A stretch of 64,000 bases of DNA from contig OY987246.1 of the NCBI GenBank assembly GCA_963920765.1, positions 9,178,501 through 9,242,500 of the forward strand, in the 5' to 3' direction. The notes beneath the pieces were generated by a model. It had not been told where the DNA came from. It saw nothing but the letters and a program-made list of their open reading frames with translations, and made no database searches. The stretch comes from Ulota crispa. Lineage: Eukaryota > Streptophyta > Bryopsida > Orthotrichales > Orthotrichaceae. Below, one piece after another: positions 14,904-61,853 of this stretch; the stretch's first letter is position 1; each line of letters starts with the position of its first letter. Position numbers and translations under genes: made by a program.

Positions 14904-17900
14904 ATGGCGATGAAGTACTTGAACGTGGATTACTTTGATGAGGCGGTATCGTCCATCACGGTCGTGCAAGACTTGGCATCCAGCTCCGAAGTGCCTCTAC
15001 ATCCGTCCCAGTGCCGCTACCTTGCATCCAAGCTGCGCGTCACCCGGAGCTCCCTAAAGGCGATGGTGCTGGATCTCCAGGGCCTTCACAGCAACGACGA
15101 CATCCGCCGGACGGCCCTGCGGAAGCTGTATTTTGCGCTGAAGCGCGCGGAGATGCTGCTGCGGCGCTGCTGCTGCTGCGAGGCGGAGCGCTCGTGGCTG
15201 GAGTCCGCCGTGACACTCGTCCATATCAAAGAGGACATCGTGGACATACTTCTCGACGTCCGCTGGTGGATGTCTATGGTGGATATCGCCATCACCTCCG
15301 ACAGGCAGGAGGGCTCACAAGAACTTGAGCTCGTGAAACGCGCGGAGAAGGATCTCAAAGATTTGACGCGCCAGTTGCAGTCGAATGACAGTGATCTCGA
15401 CAAGGCCGTGGCCGAGGACAACGAGAAGCTCCTCAAGCGCGTGCGGGAGATTCAAAATTCGCATGCTTGCAAAAGCGACCACGAGTATCTCCTCGCGACC
15501 CATGTGCGGAAGCGGCTGGAGAAGACCGACCTGAGCCCATTCACGCCGGAGGAGCTCAACAAGCATATTGACGGGCCAGTGATTGGCTCCGGCACCTTCG
15601 GAGCCGTGCAGCAGGTGGAATGGTTGAAACGCAAGTGCGCTTTGAAAACGCTCAATGTCAAGTGCAGGGAGGAGGCCGCCACCTTGAGCTCTTTCCAGCA
15701 TCCGCACATTGTGCAATTTCTAAGGTATTGGGAATTTCCATTCGATGCACTGCCGGGTGAATCACCACCCGCCAGCAGCACTACTGCGATGAGTACGTCC
15801 ATATCAAATGGCAATGCATCCGACTCATCATCGTCGGAGGCCAGCTCGGGGAAATCGTACATTCTGATGGAGCTTCTGCCGACAGACCTTGCGAATCACT
15901 TAATCGCCGTAAATAATGCGGCATCGAGATCGCGAGGGGGTTCGAGGAGGAACTTGGGCGAGTCTACTTCGACCCCTGAAGCGATTCCCATGTCGCAGGA
16001 CGTCGCAATTGACGTGATGCTGCAAGTGGCGAAGGCGATGTGTCATTTGAACAAAAGCAACGTCGCGCACCGGGATTTGAAGCCGAAGAACGTGTTGGTG
16101 AGGACCGTGACCGGCGAGGAGGTCCCCGAGCTAGCGGCCTGCGGGTACGTGCGTGTGAAGCTCGCTGACTTTGGGCTGGCAAAAAACGCGGCCTTGAGCA
16201 CCGCGTTCAAGTCGCTGACGAAAAATAAGGGGACGACGATGTACGGGGCGCCGGAGATCTTCACAAAGGAGAGTGCGCCCCCCAAGGAGCCCAAATTTCC
16301 TCGCTTAGCGGATGTGTGGAGCTTCGGGATTATGTTCAGCGAGGTGCTCACTGGGAAACCTCCGTACGTGCCGAATGAGAAGAAACCTCCGTTTGTGCCG
16401 AATGAGAAGAAACCTCCGCTCGTGCCGAATGAGAAGGATGTTGGCCTGAGCGATGTGCAAACCAGGTTCCGACAAGGCTGGCGGCCGGAGCTGCCAGCGG
16501 CGTGTCCTGAGTACCTCAAGTTCTGCATCATGCGGTGCTGGCAGCTCCATCCGCAAGACCGCCCCAACTTCACTGATGTGCTGAGGCTGCTGCGGTTGGC
16601 GCAGGCCCGGAGCCTCGGCATCATTCGAGAGGATCACGACCTCTTCACTTACAGCACAAGAGATGGCGTTCCGAAAAGTTTGCATGAACCGCCCCCCGGC
16701 GCCATCGATCCAAAACCCCCTACCTCCTGGTGGCTCGTTCTCGCCAGGCGGTTCGCTCAGCTATTTTCCGACAGTAAGTAACTGACCCCACGATATTCTC
16801 TTGGCTCTAGCGTAACTCTCGTGGGGGGAGCGACGTCATCGAAGTCATCATTGAGATGCTGTTTCTTTACCTCAGAAGAAAATACATGTGCAGAGTTTTG
16901 GCCCTGGTTCTAGATTTTAAATCGGTTCCTTCGAAGCTGACCGTGCAAATAGTCTTGCACTTGTCGAGATTAGGAGTCTCTGGTAGCCACTAGCCAGGTA
17001 TTTCCGTGTCACGATGACGTGTTTTTGTACTGGATGTGTTCAGGACGGGTCGACCCGATCAGAAGGCCGTCGTCCAGAGCAGGTCAGTGGCAGCGTTTGG
17101 CGATCTGAATCAGCGTTGTTGAGTGTTCGGGAATACCGGTTCTGAATGTGAGGATGGTGCAATGCTGCAGATGCGTCAGTGAAGCGACCCCAGGACCAGC
17201 CGCTCGGGTACATCGTGAACTGCGTGTGGCCGAAGGACGCGAGCTTGGAGAGCAGCAAGGCGGACGTGATCTTCTTCGAAGGCAACGTCGGCCGACGGGT
17301 GTTCCTGTCGTGCAAGGATACGTGGGTGCAGCGAGGCAAGCGTGAGATGCGTGACGTGTTGTGGCCGCGCGACTGGTTGCCCAAGGACTTCAACGACGAC
17401 CTGCGCGTCTTGCTGCTGGAGTACAGCATCTCGGACGCCGCCGTGATAGGCGTGGTGGACCAGCTGCAGCAAATGCTCGTGTTCAGGTAAAACCAACCCC
17501 GAGTATGGAAGGAGTCGTGATGAGAAAACGGCTATGTCGATTGCTTGTGTTGGGAAGCGTATAATTGAATGGGAGCCATGCAAGTTTTATACCAACAGAT
17601 TCAGTGAACAGCACGAAACATGGGAATAGTGGAAGAGGTAGAGGGCCTCCATTGAGCTGCGTGTGCAGACGCTGAGGTTCCGAGAGTCTTTGACGGGTGT
17701 TGGCGTGCCTGCTTGCTTGGTGCAGTAAACGATGGAATCGAGGGCACACGTGGAACCGTCCCATTGTCTTGGTCGGCCATAGCTTAGGGTGCGTGGTGAT
17801 CGAGCAGCTGGTGGTGGCGCTGCAGCAAAGAGCGAGCTTGAAGGACGATTCCGAAGCCAGCCGCGGCGCTGAGGCTTTCCTGGCAAACCTGGCGGGATGC

Positions 17901-18428
17901 TTCTTCTACGCACCCCCTTTCACGGGACTGGAACCCGACGAGTCGCTGCTGAAGCACGTCTTCGGAGGGTTGACGTACAAGGACGATCTGTTCGACGATC
18001 TGAGTTTGGATTCCCCGGTACCGCAACAGCTTTTTCAGAACTTCATGCTAGCAAGACGCGATCGCGTGAAGTTGATGGCGTTGGTGGAGGGTTTTCACAC
18101 CCAAGGGGTAAGTGGAGCCAGTGACATTTTCTAGTAACCATTGGTGGGTTTTCGTAGACACAGTTTTGGACAGGGAATTTTGGACTTGAAGCTGTTTGGA
18201 GTGGACGTTGTTAGGGTTGTGGGCTGATGCGGTTGGATGGGTGCGCATGTGCAGAAAACCGTAGCGCCGGCGGCGTGGATGGAGGAGTTCAAAGCAAAGG
18301 GAGGCATTGTAAAGCGTTTGGGGGATTCGAACCACAGCAGGACGTGCAAGCCTACGGAAAAGGAGCACGCTGCGTATCAGGACCTTTCCAAGTTCATTAG
18401 AGAGATTTTGGAGGGAGAGAAGATGTAG
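14904..18428 (+). CDS. Helical domain - TKL-like kinase - SERAC1-like hydrolase fusion, copy 1
   Basis: Exons 14904-16773, 17171-17486, 17726-18107 and 18255-18428 join in phase (913 aa). Residues 1-200 are predominantly helical with a charged coiled stretch at about 140-200, recalling helical-bundle plus brace layouts such as MLKL (inference). The kinase spans about 225-570 and has GSGTFG (228-233), K248 in CALKTL, HRDLKPKN (389-396), DFG (422-424), APE (449-451) and CWQLHPQDRPNF, so it should be active. An acidic/Ser-rich insert occupies about 285-316. After the first intron, ADVIFFEG, WPRDWLPKDF, GHSLG (Ser748) and NHSRTCKP (His883) match SERAC1/DUF676-type hydrolases. The strong donor GTAAGT at 16774 overlaps the last sense codons of the kinase frame; unspliced, the kinase would end at 16781. 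ATG 14904 is preferred because copy 2 keeps it in frame; ATG 14856 is possible. Biochemical role and location are unknown; the context suggests signalling or immunity. Confidence 0.75.
16008..18376 (+). repeat. Near-perfect identity tract with the second gene copy (copy 1 side)
   Basis: From 'attgacgtgatgctgcaag' to 'gagcacgctgcgta' I find no difference from 28031-30399 over about 2369 bp, all three introns included. The offset is constant at 12023 bp. Just outside the tract, on both sides, the copies differ at many positions. This pattern fits gene conversion. Confidence 0.85.
16357..16437 (+). repeat. Triplicated 27 bp in-frame repeat inside the kinase domain
   Basis: Three tandem copies of a 27 bp unit encode KPPYVPNEK, KPPFVPNEK and KPPLVPNEK. 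They lie between the DVWSFGIMFSEVLTG helix (alpha F) and the next helix of the kinase C-lobe. A single KPPY-type motif is normal there, so two units are an expansion. The same triplication is present in copy 2 at 28380-28460, inside the identity tract. Confidence 0.9.
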
Positions 18429-26938: not shown

Positions 26939-29900
26939 ATGGCGATGGACTACCTGAGCGTGGACTACTTCGATTAGGCGGTATTGTCCATAGCGATCGT
27001 GCAAGACTTGGCATCCCGCTCCGAAGTGCCACTGCATCCGTCCCAGTGCCAGTACCTCGCATCCCAGCTCCGAGTGACCCGGAGCTCCCTGCAGGCGAAG
27101 GCGCTGGAACTCCAGGACGTTCGCAGCGGCGGCATCCGCCGGACGGCCCTACGGCAGCTGCATTTTGCGCTGAAGCGCGCAGAGATGCTGTTGCGGCACT
27201 GCTGCTGCAAGGTGGAGCCCTCATGGCTGGAGTCCGCCGTGACGCTGGCCCAGATCAGAGAGGACATCGTGGACATACTTCTTGACGTTTGCTGGTGGAT
27301 GTCCATGGTGGATATTGCCATCACCATCGAGAGGCGGGGGGGATCACAAGAACTTTGGTAGCTGAAACGCGCGGAGAATGATCTCGAGGACCTGATGCGC
27401 CAGTTGCAATCGCGCGATAGTGACCTCGATAAGGCCGTGGCCAAGGATAACGAGGAGCTCCTCAAGCGCGTGCAGGAGCTTCAGGAATTGCATGCCACCA
27501 AAGGCGACTTGGAATATCTCCTGGCGACCCATGTGCGGACGCGGCTGGAGAAGACCGACCTGAGCCCATCTACAGCGGATGAGCTCAACAAGCATATTAG
27601 CGGGCCAATCATTGGCTCTGGCAGCTTCGGAGCCGTGCAGGAGGTGGAATGGTTGAAACGCAAGTGCGCTTTGAAAGTGCTCAATTACAAGTGCACAAAG
27701 GAGGCCAGCGCCTTACGCTCCTTCCAGCATCCGCACATTGTGCAGTTCCTCAGGTATTGGGAAGTTCCATTCGATGCACTGCCGGGTGAATCACCATCCG
27801 TCAGCAGTGCGATGGGTATGCCCTTACCAAATGGCGATCCATCCCATACGTCATCGTCGGATGCCAGCTTGGGGAAATCGTACATTCTGATGGAGCTTCT
27901 GCCGACAGACCTCGCGAATCACTTAGCAACCGCCGTAAGGAAAGCTGCGTCGAGAGCGCGAGCGGGTTCGAGGACCTTGGGCGAGTCTCCTTCGATATCT
28001 GATGCGATGCCCATGTCGCTGGGCAGCGCGATTGACGTGATGCTGCAAGTGGCGAAGGCGATGTGTCATTTGAACAAAAGCAACGTCGCGCACCGGGATT
28101 TGAAGCCGAAGAACGTGTTGGTGAGGACCGTGACCGGCGAGGAGGTCCCCGAGCTAGCGGCCTGCGGGTACGTGCGTGTGAAGCTCGCTGACTTTGGGCT
28201 GGCAAAAAACGCGGCCTTGAGCACCGCGTTCAAGTCGCTGACGAAAAATAAGGGGACGACGATGTACGGGGCGCCGGAGATCTTCACAAAGGAGAGTGCG
28301 CCCCCCAAGGAGCCCAAATTTCCTCGCTTAGCGGATGTGTGGAGCTTCGGGATTATGTTCAGCGAGGTGCTCACTGGGAAACCTCCGTACGTGCCGAATG
28401 AGAAGAAACCTCCGTTTGTGCCGAATGAGAAGAAACCTCCGCTCGTGCCGAATGAGAAGGATGTTGGCCTGAGCGATGTGCAAACCAGGTTCCGACAAGG
28501 CTGGCGGCCGGAGCTGCCAGCGGCGTGTCCTGAGTACCTCAAGTTCTGCATCATGCGGTGCTGGCAGCTCCATCCGCAAGACCGCCCCAACTTCACTGAT
28601 GTGCTGAGGCTGCTGCGGTTGGCGCAGGCCCGGAGCCTCGGCATCATTCGAGAGGATCACGACCTCTTCACTTACAGCACAAGAGATGGCGTTCCGAAAA
28701 GTTTGCATGAACCGCCCCCCGGCGCCATCGATCCAAAACCCCCTACCTCCTGGTGGCTCGTTCTCGCCAGGCGGTTCGCTCAGCTATTTTCCGACAGTAA
28801 GTAACTGACCCCACGATATTCTCTTGGCTCTAGCGTAACTCTCGTGGGGGGAGCGACGTCATCGAAGTCATCATTGAGATGCTGTTTCTTTACCTCAGAA
28901 GAAAATACATGTGCAGAGTTTTGGCCCTGGTTCTAGATTTTAAATCGGTTCCTTCGAAGCTGACCGTGCAAATAGTCTTGCACTTGTCGAGATTAGGAGT
29001 CTCTGGTAGCCACTAGCCAGGTATTTCCGTGTCACGATGACGTGTTTTTGTACTGGATGTGTTCAGGACGGGTCGACCCGATCAGAAGGCCGTCGTCCAG
29101 AGCAGGTCAGTGGCAGCGTTTGGCGATCTGAATCAGCGTTGTTGAGTGTTCGGGAATACCGGTTCTGAATGTGAGGATGGTGCAATGCTGCAGATGCGTC
29201 AGTGAAGCGACCCCAGGACCAGCCGCTCGGGTACATCGTGAACTGCGTGTGGCCGAAGGACGCGAGCTTGGAGAGCAGCAAGGCGGACGTGATCTTCTTC
29301 GAAGGCAACGTCGGCCGACGGGTGTTCCTGTCGTGCAAGGATACGTGGGTGCAGCGAGGCAAGCGTGAGATGCGTGACGTGTTGTGGCCGCGCGACTGGT
29401 TGCCCAAGGACTTCAACGACGACCTGCGCGTCTTGCTGCTGGAGTACAGCATCTCGGACGCCGCCGTGATAGGCGTGGTGGACCAGCTGCAGCAAATGCT
29501 CGTGTTCAGGTAAAACCAACCCCGAGTATGGAAGGAGTCGTGATGAGAAAACGGCTATGTCGATTGCTTGTGTTGGGAAGCGTATAATTGAATGGGAGCC
29601 ATGCAAGTTTTATACCAACAGATTCAGTGAACAGCACGAAACATGGGAATAGTGGAAGAGGTAGAGGGCCTCCATTGAGCTGCGTGTGCAGACGCTGAGG
29701 TTCCGAGAGTCTTTGACGGGTGTTGGCGTGCCTGCTTGCTTGGTGCAGTAAACGATGGAATCGAGGGCACACGTGGAACCGTCCCATTGTCTTGGTCGGC
29801 CATAGCTTAGGGTGCGTGGTGATCGAGCAGCTGGTGGTGGCGCTGCAGCAAAGAGCGAGCTTGAAGGACGATTCCGAAGCCAGCCGCGGCGCTGAGGCTT

Positions 29901-30490
29901 TCCTGGCAAACCTGGCGGGATGCTTCTTCTACGCACCCCCTTTCACGGGACTGGAACCCGACGAGTCGCTGCTGAAGCACGTCTTCGGAGGGTTGACGTA
30001 CAAGGACGATCTGTTCGACGATCTGAGTTTGGATTCCCCGGTACCGCAACAGCTTTTTCAGAACTTCATGCTAGCAAGACGCGATCGCGTGAAGTTGATG
30101 GCGTTGGTGGAGGGTTTTCACACCCAAGGGGTAAGTGGAGCCAGTGACATTTTCTAGTAACCATTGGTGGGTTTTCGTAGACACAGTTTTGGACAGGGAA
30201 TTTTGGACTTGAAGCTGTTTGGAGTGGACGTTGTTAGGGTTGTGGGCTGATGCGGTTGGATGGGTGCGCATGTGCAGAAAACCGTAGCGCCGGCGGCGTG
30301 GATGGAGGAGTTCAAAGCAAAGGGAGGCATTGTAAAGCGTTTGGGGGATTCGAACCACAGCAGGACGTGCAAGCCTACGGAAAAGGAGCACGCTGCGTAC
30401 CGGGACCTTTGCAATTTCATTGGAGAGATTTTGGAAAGGGAGGTGATGAGCAACAGGATTGCAAGAGCTTCAAAGCCATATGCAAGATAG
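26939..30490 (+). pseudogene. Kinase-hydrolase fusion, copy 2, with two 5' nonsense codons
   Basis: Exons corresponding to copy 1 are 26939-28796, 29194-29509, 29749-30130 and 30278-30490. Relative to copy 1 the frame is broken by TAG at 26975-26977 (a GAG in copy 1) and TAG at 27359-27361, both before or within the N-terminal helical region. From ATG 27395 the frame is open through the coiled stretch, a kinase with GSGSFG, HRDLKPKN and DFG, and, after splicing, the hydrolase: 770 aa without the first helical domain. The C-terminus is about 13 residues longer than in copy 1 because the copy 1 stop is not conserved. About 80% protein identity upstream of 28031, apparently 100% in the following 2.37 kb. 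It may be a dying gene, a truncated but active kinase-hydrolase, or a conversion donor. Expression data would decide. Confidence 0.7.
28031..30399 (+). repeat. Near-perfect identity tract with the first gene copy (copy 2 side)
   Basis: Counterpart of 16008-18376 at a constant offset of 12023 bp. Immediately upstream the two genes encode different residues (QDVAID against GSAID); immediately downstream 'taccgggacctttgc' replaces 'tatcaggacctttcc'. Confidence 0.85.
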
Positions 30491-51146: not shown

Positions 51147-52121
51147 TCTCCGTGCTCAAATTTGTAGTCCCATTCCAAGCTCCACGTAAGCTTAAGTACT
51201 ATCGAGCACTGACATTTTCTGCAGCATTTATAGAACCGCGCCCTTATTTTTCAGCATAACTTATTTTCTTTTCGAATTCCAGGTTCCGGAGCTTCACACC
51301 ACTGCATCGATCCGAAGGTTTGACTACATTCTAGCTGGATTCATGTTTTTGGATCCAACTGCAGTCGTTCGCTGCACTCAGGCACTATCTTTTGTCCTTT
51401 TGTTACTTGTCTGAATTTTTATGTGTGTTTTGATCGCTTCTAAATGGAATGCTTACATATGTAGAGGTGAAAATAAGCTTTGAGTAATTATCAGTTAGTG
51501 GAGTGTATTGGAGCTCTGAATTCGTGGTGATGATACGCTAGGGTTTTGGTTTTCTTTATAGCGATGATATTCTGATGATAGACTGGGGCATTGTTCTTGA
51601 TTCATCTTGTTGTTTGTTATTGTGTTCTGCATCTTATTGTTCTCCACAAAGCGCTTGTTCTGTGAAATTTTTCTTATGCTGAGCAGGCTCCTGTTTCTAT
51701 TGAGTGATTGGAAGCACATGAGTTTAATTGTGGTTTACTGGATTCTCAGAAACCTTGACAGATGGATTTTTTTTGTTTGCGAGCTTCTTGTGCTTTAAAA
51801 TTATAAAATCAAAAAAGGAATAGCGTGTCTTTGTGTTGGAATCGCAGGAATAGAGTGTCTTAAGACATTCGAAGCTTTTAGTGATTCTCTTTCTCCTCTA
51901 TCTCTTTTGAATTGGACTTCTGAAATGTACAATTCACGAAGATGATTCAGCTTTTCCGAGCGAATGTGAGCTAGTGAATTTGCTGTAGCAGCATGGTAAG
52001 GAATGAAGAACATGCAAACTCCTGCAGAGGCTCTTGGAAGCGAGGTTCAATGCTTGTGGAGCGTTCAGGTTAGCGTTTGAGCAGCGCTGCTACTCCATCT
52101 GGAAGGAGCAGTATAAAAAAC
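51147..52121. other. Upstream region and possible 5' UTR of the AAE14-like gene
   Basis: No other gene seen. Pyrimidine-rich and mixed sequence with potential 5' UTR introns, for example a donor-like 'atggtaagg' at about 51993. No confident promoter element identified. Confidence 0.4.
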
Positions 52122-55100
52122 ATGGAGCGGAATGTGGGAGCGCACATAGGGCAAGCGCTACGAGCCCTTCATACAGGCAAGGGATTCATTTCATGTGAGG
52201 ATAGGGTTCAAATCCTGTCTCATTTTGCACAACGAGTGGCAGCACTTGCTGCAGGGCTTTCTAGAGGTGGAGGTCTTCAGCCCGGGGATCGTGTAGCGGT
52301 TGCCGCGCTCAACAGGTGTGCCTGCACTTCTTTCACTGATGCATGCTCTTTTATAAGGGAAAATTTTATGGATACCCCTGAAGTTTGCAATATTTTCATA
52401 GATACCCCTGCTTTTTCAGAAATGTCACAAATACCCTTGACCAAATATTTTAAGAGTTTGTTTTGTTGTGCATGCCACTTCCCTTCATCCGTTCTGCACA
52501 TGCATAACAAGAAAGAAGCAGTGTGCTCACAAAGGGGGAAGGAAGTGACGTGCATAAGAAAACAAACGCTTAAACTTTTTGGTCCAAGGGTATTTGTGTA
52601 TTTCTGAAAAAGCAGGGGTATCTATGAAAATATGGCAAACTTCAGGGGTATCCATGAAATTTTCCCTTTTTATAAACACATTATCTAGAGCACGGAAGAC
52701 GATACTATAGTATCGTTCTTCAAGTCTCTTCTGAATTTCCATCAGAATTCTGTTTAGAGAAGTTTTATGCTTGCGAAGTTACCGAAGTTGTCATAATGTA
52801 AGAGATATGGTTTGTGAACCGAAACAAACTTATGACGCGAAGGCTCTCTCTTTCATGCCGTTTGCAGAATCCGAAAAAGTTGCAATATTGATTTCGAACA
52901 TTCCCGCATCTGCATTCCTTAAAATGTCAAGATTGCTGCTTTATGTTATTTTGACGTGACTCTTTTCCAGAATTGAGGCTCTTTTTAGCTTCTAAGACCT
53001 TCTCTAGGCGAAGTCTAGTCTCATGAACGTTTCATTTTGCAGTGAAAGGTACTTGGAATGGCTCTTTGCTGTGCCATGCGCCGGCGGAATCGTCGCTCCA
53101 CTTAATTATAGATGGGTATGTATGACAATGCATCCTCTACTTTTTGCAATTCAGTCTTCTCTATCTATTGATGATTGGCCAAGTGTTTTTGATGATTCTG
53201 AAGTTTTCAGCAAAGTTTGCAGTTCGTAAGTAATTTTAGAGTCCTTACAGTCCTTCATTGAGGATTTTTATTGAACGCGCTTCCTGGAATTGTGTATTAG
53301 GATGAAAATGCCGTCAACGAGGTGATGTCAATTGAATCTTGGCACTTAATGTTAAATCCACGTATGCAGTGATCATTTTACCTTTATGAGTGCAGAGTAT
53401 GGAAGAGGCTAGTGAGGCAGTTGCGCAAATTGGGGCCACCATATTGGTGCTGGATCAGACCTGTTTACAGCAGTGGCCTGATCTTCACACCAGGTGCCCG
53501 TCGCTTCGTTTGCAGATTCTTCTTGGTCCAGGATTGAACTGTCCTTCCTGTGAGTAAAGGTCTATCCTGTTGTCAAGCTTGATGTTGCAAATGATTTTGA
53601 TTAGGAGAGATGATAGCTCTCTTCTACAGTTGTAATAGAAGATCCTTTCTTGCTTACAGAATGTCGCGAGGTATAATTAGTTAGGAATCACCCTGGAGTA
53701 TTAGAGCCCATCCGCTTCCTCTGCAGTATTGTAATACCTGTAAAAAGATTTCCAACAATACTTGGAGGATCATCATCTGTGCTTTCCTTGAATCGGAGAA
53801 GGGGAAATTATAGTATCTTATGTCAGATTGTTGTGCATGTCTGAGTTGCCTTGTCCCCAATCGTTAGTTACATCTTCTGTAGTCAATCACATCACCTATT
53901 AATGTTTACAACTATGCTTAGCTTCAAGAACATGCAAATGATGAGATGTTTACAAGGGTCTACAAAATTTATATTCGGGATGCTCTGATGCTTGTTACGA
54001 CAAGTTTCCGGATGTGCCGTTTGCAAGTCTCCTGACAATAAAAATACGAACCTTCATTGTCCCTGGCAATGACTTACCGAGTTTATTTGTGCTAAGGTTC
54101 TGATGCTGATGAATATCTGCAGCTTTTGTTGACGCTGAAGAGGTTCTGACGTGGGCTGGTCCAAGCCTGGAATTTGACCTAAAATGGGCGCCAAATTCGG
54201 CTGCCCTTATATGTTTCACATCAGGTACATATAGAGGCCTAAAGAGTACTTTGCTCACTCGTGTCTATTCTGCCGAGAACCCATGGCATCTTGTGTTCGT
54301 TTTACTTGATTGGAGATCTTTATTCTTGAATACTCATGTTAGTACAGACATCACGTAATCGTCTAAAGTAACAATCGTTGTACTTGTGCTAAATGTTGGT
54401 TAGATTCAACTGTGTCGTCTTTACCTTGGCTAATTTTGCTTCTTCATCGATAAGTGTTTGGTGGTTATTTTAAAGTAAACGCATTTGAATCTAATGTTTG
54501 GGTTCACTGCGTAGTCTTATTACTCATGTATCTGTACAATTATTGACTTAGGCATAAGACATATGTACAGCAGACTGGTTCGCATTGGAATCTAATTGTC
54601 ATAATAGTAGATCTACTTCCCCATCCGAGGTGCCGTTCATATTTTAACTTTAGTTTGCCCCATCTCCTCAGGAACCACTGGAAAGCCAAAAGGAGTGGTG
54701 ATTAGTCATAATGCGCTTGTGGTGCAGTCACTAGCAAAAGTAGCTGTGGTTGGCTACAAGTCCTCTGATGTAGGATGATCTCTCCCTTTACACATCCTCT
54801 TGTTTCTGATGTTTAGTTGGCATTCACTTGAGTTTTTTTATGCGCAGCTTCAAACGCTTTGATCTCTAACTAGCATTCTTGGAAGCACATTATTTAGTCG
54901 AAAATTTTCTGAATAACTATTTGGCAGATTTTTGCAGATTATATATTGAATTACTTGCTGTGACTGTAGGTTTATCTGCATATATCACCACTCTGCCATG
55001 TAGGAGGGATTTCGTCAGCCTTGGCGAATATTATGGCAGGAGCCTCCCATGTCATTTTGCCCAGGTTCCATGCTGTGGCAGTATTTGATGCCATCCGAGA

Positions 55101-57462
55101 CCATCATGTGACCTCCATGATCATTGTTCCAACTATGCTTGCGGACTTGGTAGCAGCGTCTGCAACTACAAAAGGGTAATTTCTCTTTGCGCTGAATCGT
55201 GACACCAGTTTAGGCTTGCAGTTGCGACCGAAAACCTGCTCCTCGTTTTAGGATTTTTTTTCTCGTCTTTAGCCATATGCTCTATATATGTGACCTTCAT
55301 GATGGTCTCTTAGAGAATTTTGTTCGCATCTGCAGAGACGGCCTTTCGTTATTTTGTTTTATACATTGGCCTGCATATGTCAAACATAACATATTATGCT
55401 GATCCTTTGTAATCGAACGTTTCTCTTCCACTGGTGGATATATACCAATTCATGACGTTAATAATGCTTTAAATTCTTGCAAGAATCAATAGGAAGAACT
55501 TATGCAGCAAGATATTGATAGTGAAAAGTGGTCCAGAGCATCGGGCAGTCCACCTTCGTTTTCAAGCGTACGGATATTGTTAAACGGAGCTGGGGGAATT
55601 CCTGCACAGCTCTTGGATTCAACCAGAATTCTCTTTCCTAATGCAGAAATTTTTTCAGCGTATGGTAAGCGTTCTATTACCGACAATTGATTAGGTCTGT
55701 TTTCCAGCATAATATATTTGCTACAGGAGGCTGTTCTTACTACCTGATTGTTTGGTTTGTACAGTTTTAGTGACATATTGCATTTGAAAGTTTCTTGTAC
55801 TTAATTGAATGTTATTTTTGGTTAGTATAGGCTCTTTGATAAGGTGTTATTGCATTAGTTGAGCTCGAATGGATTGGATTCACTGATTGACATACCTTGG
55901 TATGTTATGTTCGAGTTAAGAGTGTAGACTCTGAAGCTATATCAGTGCTGTTCTTGAGTTGGTTAATGTGACTCGCCACGCTCTTTTTAGAGGGCCGTAG
56001 AACACGTAGTTTTGAAGCTTTATATCGTTATGCTAAACCCTTGACTAACGGGGACAGTGGGTTCAGGTTTTGCCACTTCTAACAAGTTTCCTTTTGTCTC
56101 ATTTTGCTGAACAGGCATGACTGAGGCTTGTTCAAGTATGTCTTTCATACCGATACATGAGCAAGAAGCAACTGGCCAACTCGGTGGTGTCTGTGTTGGA
56201 AAGCCAGCCCCTCATGTTGAACTGAGAATTGGGCAGCCAATCCTGTCACGAAATCCACCATATATGACAGAAAATCTCATTGTGAAAAGTGAGTTGTTTA
56301 GAGAAGGGCATGTTCTCACTCGAGGACCACATGTAATGGAATACTACTGGGGACTTCCGTCGGAGACTGCAGCAGTCTTAAGCGTTGATGGGTGGTTGGA
56401 CACGGGTGATGTCGGGTGGATGGATGAATCTGGACTTCTTTGGCTTCTCGGCCGTTCCAAAGATGTCATCAAAAGTGGTGGTGAAAACGTTTATGCTTCA
56501 GAGGTGATTACTATCTTTCTATTTCTTGCTTCTGTGAGAAATCTTGCGCAATTTCAAGTTCATGTCAGGAACTCCTTAAAGACAAAAGTGCCGGGTCTGA
56601 GTTGTGATTTAAGACACACAGGGGCTTTCTGTGAGCATCTTGCCTCAGGTTGGCTTTTATGCATATTTGGTTCCCAGAGGTATATCCGGTTTTTAGTTCT
56701 GTTTTCTTCGAAGTGAGCTTAGTTTTGGCCTTGTGGATGCAGGTAGAATGTGTCCTGCTGAAGCATCCAGGAATATCGTCAGTGGCTGTTGTGGGTATTC
56801 CCGATGAGAGATTGACCGAAATGGTGGTTGCTTTTGTGCGTCTCCGAGACAAGTGGGTTTGGGAAGACAAATATCAAGGGCAGCTCAGTGTGACAGGAGC
56901 CATCAATCAAATTCAAATGGAAGATTACCGAGGCAACCGGGTCGTATCTCAGATTGAGTTGCGCATTCACTGCCAGCAACTTGGCCTTTCAAGGTCCAGA
57001 TTCTATCCATCATTCTCTCCTTCTGCGTGACCTTGGAAGCATTGAATCCACTCATGAGATCGTCCCATGTTTATCCATCCTCTTTTTTCTTGCAACTCAC
57101 AGAATCGTGGGTCTTAAAAGTTACCTGAGTAACTCCTAAAAGCTTCACAATGTGTGTCCCACTCTTTCGGCTGAACTTCTCGATCCAGGTTACCGATGTC
57201 TAGAAGATTGCATGCAATGGAAATTGACCTCATTCGAAGCTAATCATTTTTGTTGTGCAGATACAAGGTACCAAAAGTCATTCTAGTGAGCAAGGAAGCA
57301 TTTCCAACAACCTCCACTGGCAAGATTAAAAAGGAGTCTGTTCGCCAGATGGCCCTGAGACGACTTGTTAAAAATGCGTTACATATGAGAGCTGGTGATC
57401 TCAACTCCGTGGCTGGAGTCGAACCTTTAGAACGGAGTACTTTGACTCGAAGCCGGTTATAA
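52122..57462 (+). CDS. AAE14: 2-succinylbenzoate-CoA ligase (AAE14/MenE type), phylloquinone synthesis
   Basis: Ten exons join in phase: 52122-52315, 53043-53115, 53396-53549, 54123-54224, 54672-54769, 54970-55175, 55522-55664, 56115-56503, 56743-56993, 57261-57462 (603 aa). The enzyme activates o-succinylbenzoate with ATP and CoA, a late step of the naphthoquinone ring pathway to vitamin K1. ANL-superfamily motifs: ICFTSGTTGKPKG (ATP/AMP loop, across an intron), YLHISPLCHVGG, ILLNGAGG, SAYGMTEACSS, WLDTGDVGW, GRSKDVIKSGGENVYASEVE, and the C-terminal TSTGKIKKE with the catalytic Lys. PCAGGIVAPLNYRWS and the whole layout are closest to plant AAE14 among family members I know. The C-terminus is SRL, a strong PTS1, so peroxisomal import is expected. 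The exon 7 acceptor (55522) was chosen for phase; 55493 is a less compatible alternative. A MITE lies in intron 1. Confidence 0.9.
52357..52666. mobile_element. MULE-like MITE in intron 1 of the AAE14-like gene
   Basis: GGGAAAATTTTATGGATACC ends with repeated 'atagatacccctg' units, inverted at the right side. The flanking 9-mers CTTTTATAA and TTTTTATAA match at 8 of 9 positions. Same family as 42560-42882, which is also intronic. Confidence 0.85.
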
Positions 57463-60044: not shown

Positions 60045-60116
60045 GCCTCCATGGCTTAGTGGTAGAGCGTTCCCTTCGTAAGGGAAAGGTCGTGAGTTCA
60101 ATCCTCACTGGGGGCA
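60045..60116 (+). tRNA. tRNA-Thr(CGU)
   Basis: 72 nt, intronless, cloverleaf complete. Acceptor stem GCCTCCA pairs with TGGGGGC (one G-U type pair), discriminator A. D arm GCTT-AGTGGTA-GAGC. Anticodon arm TTCCC-TTCGTAA-GGGAA with anticodon CGT (CGU), reading ACG. T arm GTGAG-TTCAATC-CTCAC is perfect. GGTAGAGCG and GTTCAATCC match the internal A and B box promoters. No CCA is encoded, as usual for eukaryotic nuclear tRNA genes. Confidence 0.95.
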
Positions 60117-60259
60117 CTTCGCCAATATCTGTTCCATGCACAATGGAAGTCGTCCTTTCTATTTCTTTTGTAACGCCTACTTTGAGCTCAATGCACTTAA
60201 ATAGACTTCTCAAATTTACATGCAGCAAAGTCTAATCCAAGCATCTCGACCTACATTAT

Positions 60260-60680: not shown

Positions 60681-60887
60681 TATTGATTCACTGTTTATCT
60701 TTTGTGAACTTTACTACAGAAGAAGAGGAGACTTCAAACAGAACACAAGAGGGCGGCATATTCTGATACCGACCGCCAGGATAGGAACCAGCCCCAACTT
60801 AGATACGATTTCCAAAGGCAAAGCTCAGAAAGACCTCGTTCACACCACATCCCAATAAAAATATCTAGACAAAACAACCGCGGTCGC

Positions 60888-61853
60888 ATGGAGTTCCAGC
60901 TTCGCCCAGCAGCAAGGAATCTCCTGCAAGACAACGCTCGCCATCGCCATTTCCAGAGCCGCGTGCAAGCAAGACTGCGAGGATTGACGATTTGCATCGC
61001 CGCGACTGCATTCCGGCATAAGTTAAATTCAGAGCAGGCGCAGGAGTCGGCGATGATGATGCCGGTGTGGATGTACCCGATCCAGGGCTTCTACTTCTTT
61101 TTCCGCAACGCGCATCTTCTGTGGCACCGCGTGGCGCGGTTCGTGCTGGAGGTTGCCATCGCCGTCGCGGGGATCCTGGTCCTCCTCTTCACGACCACCT
61201 TTTCGTCGCAACGGCACTTCGTGCTCCGCCTTTTGCCTTACCGGACGGGAACTCCAGTCGCCGTCGCGCTCATTCTTCTGGAGACGGCGATCGCCATCGT
61301 GATGCTGTTCCGGAACCGCCTGGAGAGCGCGCAGCGGAAGCTTTTTATCGACGTGCTAGCCATCCGCAAAGTGGCGGTGGAGGTCGCTACCCCGGAGGAT
61401 CACTCGTGGCTGCAGGAGCGTCTAATTCCGCAGCTGGTGGGCGTCCCTCTGCAAGCCCCGACGAAGCGCGTCTCCAAGCAGCAGAAACCGGCGGCGTACT
61501 TGAGCAGCGTGCTTACCGAGGACAGTCACCCGATTCTGCATTTTCTTCTTACCCTTCCCCTCAACTTTGTTCCCGTGGCGGGAACTGCGCTCTTCTGCTT
61601 TTTGAACTCGTTTCCCAATGCCATTGGCTTGCACCACTACTACTACACGCAGATGAAAGGGCTCACCTCGCAGGAGTTCTCCGCCGTGGTGCATGCGAAG
61701 AAGGCGCAGTACCAGTCGTTCGGGTTCGTCGCGTCCGCGTTCAGTCTCATCCCGGGGCTCGACATCCTCCTCGTGCTCACCAACGCCGTGGGCGCCGCGT
61801 TGTGGGCTGCCGACATGGAGAAGACGCAGGGCAGCATCAAGTCTAAGTACTGA
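60888..61853 (+). CDS. Intronless multi-pass membrane protein, EI24/RRT8-like C-terminus
   Basis: 321 aa from ATG 60888, no intron. Hydrophobic segments lie at about 83-105 (VARFVLEVAIAVAGILVLLF), 121-141 (GTPVAVALILLETAIAIVML), 218-243 (PILHFLLTLPLNFVPVAGTA and following), and 276-306 (FGFVASAFSLIPGLDILLVL then TNAVGAALWAADME). The last two, with LPLNFVPVAGT and TNAVGAALWAADMEK, closely resemble the C-terminal signature of the fungal RRT8/LDS outer-spore-wall and lipid-droplet proteins in the EI24-like group. Function in those proteins is membrane or lipid-droplet related and poorly defined. GC content is clearly higher than in the flanking DNA. Transfer from a fungus is possible but unproven. 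A later start (the MMMP at about residue 56) would remove only the soluble N-terminus. Confidence 0.75.
   Translation: MEFQLRPAARNLLQDNARHRHFQSRVQARLRGLTICIAATAFRHKLNSEQAQESAMMMPVWMYPIQGFYFFFRNAHLLWHRVARFVLEVAIAVAGILVLLFTTTFSSQRHFVLRLLPYRTGTPVAVALILLETAIAIVMLFRNRLESAQRKLFIDVLAIRKVAVEVATPEDHSWLQERLIPQLVGVPLQAPTKRVSKQQKPAAYLSSVLTEDSHPILHFLLTLPLNFVPVAGTALFCFLNSFPNAIGLHHYYYTQMKGLTSQEFSAVVHAKKAQYQSFGFVASAFSLIPGLDILLVLTNAVGAALWAADMEKTQGSIKSKY

Follow-up and report, generated by a model that had tools for sequence, protein, structure and literature searches.

Structure of the gene

We analysed a window of 64,000 nucleotides of the moss Ulota crispa (positions 9178501-9242500 of contig C5 in a 274.8 Mb assembly), and all coordinates below are positions in this window. 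On its + strand, at 14904..18428, sequence comparison supports a spliced gene of four exons that encodes a helical region, an active-looking kinase and a hydrolase in one chain. The introns given for this gene in a first-pass annotation (16774-17170, 17487-17725 and 18108-18254) proved exact; all are GT-AG, in phases 1, 2 and 0, and joining 14904-16773, 17171-17486, 17726-18107 and 18255-18428 yields 2,742 bases and an open chain of 913 residues without inner stops. Exon 1 (14904..16773, residues 1-623, ending in phase 1) carries the HeLo-type bundle, the brace and the kinase, and is followed by intron 1 (16774..17170; 397 bases, phase 1, GTAAGT..CTGCAG). Exon 2 (17171..17486) encodes the first part of the hydrolase with the motif WPRDWLPKD, and intron 2 (17487..17725; 239 bases, phase 2, GTAAAA..GTGCAG) separates it from exon 3 (17726..18107), which holds the hydrolase core with the GHSLG nucleophile elbow and the Ser748 codon at 17781. 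After intron 3 (18108..18254; 147 bases, phase 0, GTAAGT..GTGCAG), exon 4 (18255..18428) encodes the hydrolase end with DSNHSRTCKP, the His883 codon at 18333 and the stop codon at 18426-18428. Exons 2, 3 and 4 matched the hydrolase profile with E 1.1e-48, 2.1e-61 and 8.8e-19, respectively, the profile itself containing this sequence. The GC content is 0.52-0.62 in the exons, 0.49-0.50 in the introns and 0.39 in the whole window.

We searched about 5.8 billion proteins and scored the 8000 candidates with most shared words; 45 proteins (P numbers) reached E <= 0.001, 13 of them as strong matches (P0001-P0013, E <= 4.8e-22). Three hypothetical proteins of Ceratodon purpureus (P0001, P0002, P0003) spanned the whole query (100% coverage, 50-54% identity) and aligned with exon 1 over its full length, and another Ceratodon protein (P0011) covered 96% of it at 34% identity. 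Using the hydrolase part of P0002 as query, we found six proteins at E <= 0.001 among 3774 candidates (P0001-P0004, P0011 and P0051), all of which also contain the kinase. Five Ceratodon gene models (KC19_2G119000, KC19_2G120600, M758_6G067300, M758_6G067200 and M758_6G066100) hold bundle, kinase and hydrolase in this order in a single annotated chain, three of them at full length. The full-length relatives back the proposal of one gene, and the domain order that was to be sought in other bryophytes is thus found in Ceratodon. The first-pass annotation had expected a kinase and a hydrolase in one chain without NB-ARC to be a new combination. The window protein indeed has no NB-ARC; the combination, however, is already present in these models, which are unnamed and annotated as 'hypothetical protein'. 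Their likeness to the window protein lies in the same three modules per chain. Unlike the window protein, KC19_2G119000 carries a second bundle-kinase C-terminal of the hydrolase, and M758_6G066100 has a kinase of another branch and an SH3 domain. The gene is a new arrangement of known modules, kept in at least one other moss, and its order has been maintained for long, given that it is kept there at 50-54% identity. The bundle-kinase has other partners as well: P0013 bears a SEL1-repeat Pfam label and P0011 an SH3 label after the hydrolase, and in P0001 a second bundle-kinase follows the hydrolase.

The junctions are traced by the same proteins. P0004 is an uninterrupted frame of 764 residues on a 2,386-base contig, reaching from the brace to the hydrolase end across all three junctions; it looks like a spliced cDNA, or alternatively an intronless gene, and in both cases the coding parts are joined. 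P0001-P0003 align gap-free across junctions 2 and 3, and junction 1 is not fixed to the residue by alignment because its linker varies in length; read by eye, only the AG at 17170 among those around it gives the correct phase. Seven gene calls (P0005-P0010 and P0012) end after exon 1. Judged by eye at the protein level, the homology of P0005-P0010 ends in Ser-Lys or Gly-Lys, as results from reading through a phase-1 donor (A/G before the cut, GTAAG after it), and P0012 shows Ser-Lys near its end as well, with a less clear placement. In the window copy the stop of the kinase frame (TAA, 16779-16781) lies inside the intron 1 donor. Since P0005-P0010 read on past the donor-like point, this immediate stop looks incidental and the donor appears to be the conserved part. 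Two hydrolase gene calls (P0048 and P0050) have Gly-Val-Ser after exon 3, matching the window frame through the start of intron 3. We infer that these two and the exon-1-only calls derive from genomic DNA.

Two neighbouring genes, a kinase ending at the TAA and a hydrolase starting near 17171, would agree with the position of that stop right at the donor, with the 397-base gap between the parts and with the unspliced calls that report the parts apart (P0005-P0010, P0048 and P0050). However, P0005-P0010 keep the donor-like reading and not the immediate stop, and the Ceratodon single-chain models stand under tags of two chromosome numbers (2G and 6G). Nor was a start codon found that would belong to exon 2 itself: its frame holds no ATG from the stop just before 17152 to the conserved hydrolase core. 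Because the order recurs in Ceratodon and P0004 is unbroken across the junctions, two separate genes are very unlikely.

Alternatively, one gene may give both products, the fusion upon splicing and a HeLo-kinase of 625 residues upon intron 1 retention or early polyadenylation, with regulation switching the gene between a lipase-bearing product and an MLKL-like one. GTAAGTAA puts the stop inside the donor, and an unspliced mRNA would end in Ser-Lys-stop; moreover, HeLo-kinases that have no hydrolase in the DNA fetched around them exist as separate genes in the same genome (L012 and L013; L numbers denote fetched loci). Nevertheless, P0005-P0010 do not share the stop, and stops commonly occur in retained introns anyway. 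We consider such a switch unlikely.

The HeLo-type bundle and the kinase

An AF2 (AlphaFold 2) model places a four-helix bundle, an MLKL-type HeLo domain, at 14925..15305 (+ strand, residues about 8-134, pLDDT 87), followed by brace helices at 15321..15521 (+ strand, residues about 140-206; helices 140-159, 164-186 and 193-206). The first-pass annotation had suggested comparing this helical region with HeLo and MLKL bundles. Structural comparison of the N-terminal 219 residues answered with MLKL: the nine best entries were all MLKL, Arabidopsis MLKL2 being first, and the AtMLKL2 alignment extended to residue 219, so residues 1-219 are predicted to adopt the MLKL-type fold, a HeLo bundle and its brace. 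The window protein had no DUF1221 (MLKL_NTD) match at E 10, and DUF1221 matched four of eight aligned N-termini (best E 2.2e-4). Owing to the missing match we term the protein MLKL-like and do not file it as a member of the plant MLKLs.

The TKL-like kinase lies at 15567..16595 (+ strand, residues about 222-564; PF07714 115 bits, PF00069 109 bits). It is active-looking, its catalytic motifs being intact in the sequence (GSGTFGAV 228-235, Lys248, HRD 389-391, DFG 422-424 and APE 449-451), and one relative, P0051, may be inactive because HGD replaces HRD. The best PDB sequence matches over residues 363-578 were 6ka4 (AtMLKL3, E 3.4e-18) and 6lba (AtMLKL2, E 9.1e-17), although the PDB is a mere sample of plant kinases. 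With plant MLKLs (AtMLKL2/3, 6lba, 6ka4; wheat Pm13) the protein shares a HeLo/DUF1221-type four-helix bundle, a brace and a C-terminal TKL kinase; it differs in the added C-terminal hydrolase, the weak sequence similarity of the bundle and a 27-residue triple repeat in the kinase. According to the available text of the respective papers, the Pm13 kinase is active-looking, as is that of the moss protein (PMC10951266), and plant MLKLs are a family conserved across seed plants that acts in TNL immunity (PMC9950082). The triple repeat (16356-16436) consists of three near-identical nine-residue units (KPPYVPNEK, KPPFVPNEK and KPPLVPNEK) inserted in the kinase C-lobe, and aligned relatives have a gap there.

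In a kinase tree (model LG+C20+F+G4) built from the 49 of 64 kinase-domain matches that passed a length filter, the window kinase, P0051, P0004, the first kinases of P0001, P0002 and P0003, and the exon-1-only calls P0006, P0008 and P0010 formed a fused clade of nine (99/96), which nests with the bundle-kinases P0012 and L012 (100/100). Eight NLR kinases formed a separate clade (99/98). The P0011 kinase and the second kinase of P0001 fell outside the fused clade; P0011 would thus carry the hydrolase on another bundle-kinase, through module exchange or a wrong gene model. Rows labelled 'other' (L013, L014, L042, L049, L053 and L054) grouped among the bundle-kinases, and for this reason, together with several long branches, the deep order of the tree is unsure.

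The hydrolase

The kinase is followed by a C-terminal alpha/beta hydrolase that contains Ser748 and His883. The nucleophile Ser and the catalytic His are invariant in seven of seven aligned hydrolases, and a structure model of the relative P0049 supports the fold. The window protein missed the cut-off of Pfam PF05057 (11.8 vs 20.3 bits), and an unattached hydrolase of the same genome (L009) passed it with 20.8 bits. We describe the domain as a SERAC1/DUF676-like serine hydrolase; its motifs presumably resemble those of SERAC1. Human SERAC1 is a lipid-remodelling protein.

Relatives of both modules in NLRs of the same genome

Searching the genome with the window hydrolase gave the two window copies of the gene (see below) as the only close matches and five distant ones on C6 and C5. 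The window bundle likewise matched the two copies closely and three loci on C8, C1 and C4 distantly; the latter (L012-L014) are bundle-kinases without hydrolase in the fetched DNA, and in L009-L011 the fetched DNA shows hydrolases of the same type with neither a kinase nor an NB-ARC. At least 132 kinase matches (124 of 1009 candidates scored) and 54 NB-ARC matches were compared by eye, and at 18 places or more a kinase match lay directly 5' of an NB-ARC on the same strand, indicating kinase-NLRs. None of the 54 NB-ARC matches falls in the window; no NB-ARC follows the kinase or the hydrolase of the window protein, in which the hydrolase comes after the kinase and the chain then ends.

In a search of 2748 frames of the window and loci, the HeLo profile matched all eight kinase-NLRs that were fetched out of the 18 (L015-L022), two of them weakly (E 3.1e-7, 5.7e-7, 3.1e-6, 3.6e-5, 0.0058, 0.0073, 0.021 and 0.08). 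The independent evidence is less than eight, since the four best matches are near-copies of each other. Among 28 other kinase loci (L001-L008 and L035-L054) a match at E <= 0.1 was found in two (L044 and L046) and not in the remaining 26, some of which have short DNA before the frame. Against an alignment of six kinase-NLR N-termini, from which L016 and L022 were excluded as near-copies, the HeLo profile scored 96.5% (E 7.3e-10, 154 columns). Single kinase-NLRs scored lower (L015 81.7%, E 1.1e-5; L021 63.4%, E 6.8e-5; L019 19.8%, E 0.0012), and one CC-NLR N-terminus taken as control gave 1.4% (E 0.037). The kinase-NLR N-terminal profile alone had AtMLKL2 as its best PDB match (E 0.024). Pfam returned noise on the six N-termini, DUF1221 appearing in two of six at a best E of 0.0063, no better than stray matches. 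The portions of the literature available to us hold no statement of a kinship between moss kinase-NLR front ends and MLKL-type HeLo domains.

Moss kinase-NLRs (PNL or Pkn-NLR) were reportedly described in Xue 2012 and Chia 2024. Like the window protein, they have an N-terminal exon with a HeLo-like bundle and a related kinase; unlike them, the window protein lacks NB-ARC and LRR and its kinase belongs to a separate clade. The available text of PMC3352924 gives the PNL intron between PK and NBS as phase 0, whereas the post-kinase intron of the window gene is phase 1. Hydrolase-NLRs (HNL or Hyd-NLR) are also present in the genome: in L023, L024, L026 and L030 an NB-ARC frame immediately follows a hydrolase exon, and in L029 the corresponding hydrolase exon is interrupted by a stop. 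They share the TW, WPxxWL and NH..CKP motifs, and the window hydrolase profile matched these four plus two L009 hydrolases at 98.2% (E 4.6e-14). In Hyd-NLRs the hydrolase is N-terminal and NB-ARC follows, whereas that of the window protein is C-terminal of the kinase. GHSLG is intact in the window protein, while two of four aligned Hyd-NLRs (L023:3171-3908 and L030:2764-3453) read CHCVG, with Cys for the expected nucleophile Ser; L024 and L026 retain Ser.

By sequence comparison, relatives of both modules are NLR front ends in this genome, and the window gene joins the two without NB-ARC. The first-pass view that these modules are NLR partners is thereby supported, but its restriction of hydrolase-NLRs to liverworts does not hold, as seen in this moss genome and in the available part of PMC10952240. 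The shared modules, along with damage in the second copy, could also mean that the gene is a degraded NLR or an integrated-decoy remnant, formerly a piece of a kinase-NLR or hydrolase-NLR and without output of its own. The intact catalytic motifs of kinase and hydrolase, the position of the fused-protein kinases in a clade apart from the NLR kinases and the same order in another moss speak against it, and we give a remnant little credence.

The second copy

A second, damaged copy lies on the + strand at 26939..30490. It shares all three introns with the first, ends differently at the C-terminus and contains two TAG codons in exon 1, within the HeLo/brace part. The 2,369 bases of 16008-18376 are letter-identical in both copies, introns included, which would be explained by either gene conversion or an assembly copy, and bins from 15000 to 16050 are 82-88% identical. 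Because of the identical block, the second copy is no independent witness of the gene structure.

Proposed function

The anatomy of the protein is well supported, and its function, the immune role included, is what we infer from it. We somewhat favour an MLKL-like executor in which the kinase would control how the bundle carries a lipid hydrolase to the membrane. At rest, brace and kinase would restrain the bundle. The bundle would be released by phosphorylation, which may be autophosphorylation or the work of a receptor kinase or NLR acting upstream, and the released protein would oligomerise and move to the membrane, where the tethered hydrolase may cleave membrane lipids or produce a lipid signal, increasing leakage. 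Such an immune cell-death executor would unite in one chain a perforating and a lipid-cutting arm that are separate in fungi (HELLP with SBP, SESA with SESB). The available text on fungal NLRs describes joint activation of a HeLo-like killer and a lipase (PMC5485727). The likeness to the HELLP/SBP/PNT1 and SESA/SESB/HET-eN loci lies in a HeLo-type membrane protein and a lipase on one signalling route; the fungal loci use separate proteins, amyloid motifs and no kinase, whereas the moss protein is one chain.

Alternatively, the protein might have no role in immunity: kinase and bundle might localise and control a SERAC1-like hydrolase that remodels lipids to maintain membranes or organelles. 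The intact hydrolase motifs, the unattached hydrolases L009-L011 and the lipid remodelling by human SERAC1 are consistent with this. On the other hand, relatives of both modules front NLRs in this genome, the damaged paralogue and the exchanged block resemble a fast-changing defence locus, and three models stand under Ceratodon 6G tags. We regard a non-immune enzyme as possible but doubtful, and retain the executor as the preferred reading.

More tentatively, and with less confidence than in the executor itself, we suggest that mosses made a single-chain 'necrosome with lipase', uniting a membrane lipase with an MLKL-like bundle and an active kinase of its own, and that, the same bundle-kinase fronting kinase-NLRs, front-end modules were recombined with and without the receptor. 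If the MLKL-like bundle-kinase is the same in both, this receptor class would be an MLKL fused to NB-ARC-LRR. The proposal would link plant MLKLs, bryophyte kinase- and hydrolase-NLRs, whose front-end mechanism is not known, and the fungal HeLo-type killer-lipase pairs, and it would make the role of the moss NLR kinase front end testable. The front end is predicted to work as an MLKL by means of the bundle that precedes the kinase, and any construct that begins with the kinase would lack the active part. In the available text of PMC11218826, the response to a published moss kinase construct was modest and variable. The structure proposed by the first-pass annotation is right, and more interesting than was stated there.

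Other features of the window

Elsewhere in the window, 52074-52607 and 56111-56716 hold gene fragments of the AMP-binding (acyl-CoA synthetase-like) type with sub-threshold Pfam matches, and an open frame at 60708-61853 has an EI24/CysZ-like match just under the cut-off (E 1.2e-6). A tRNA-Thr gene with anticodon CGT lies at 60045-60117. Dispersed repeats, direct and inverted, 300-600 bases long and 84-93% alike, form the pairs 33509-34090/59376-59950, 34109-34527/39930-40348 and 42558-42882/52357-52668 and are probably transposon remains.
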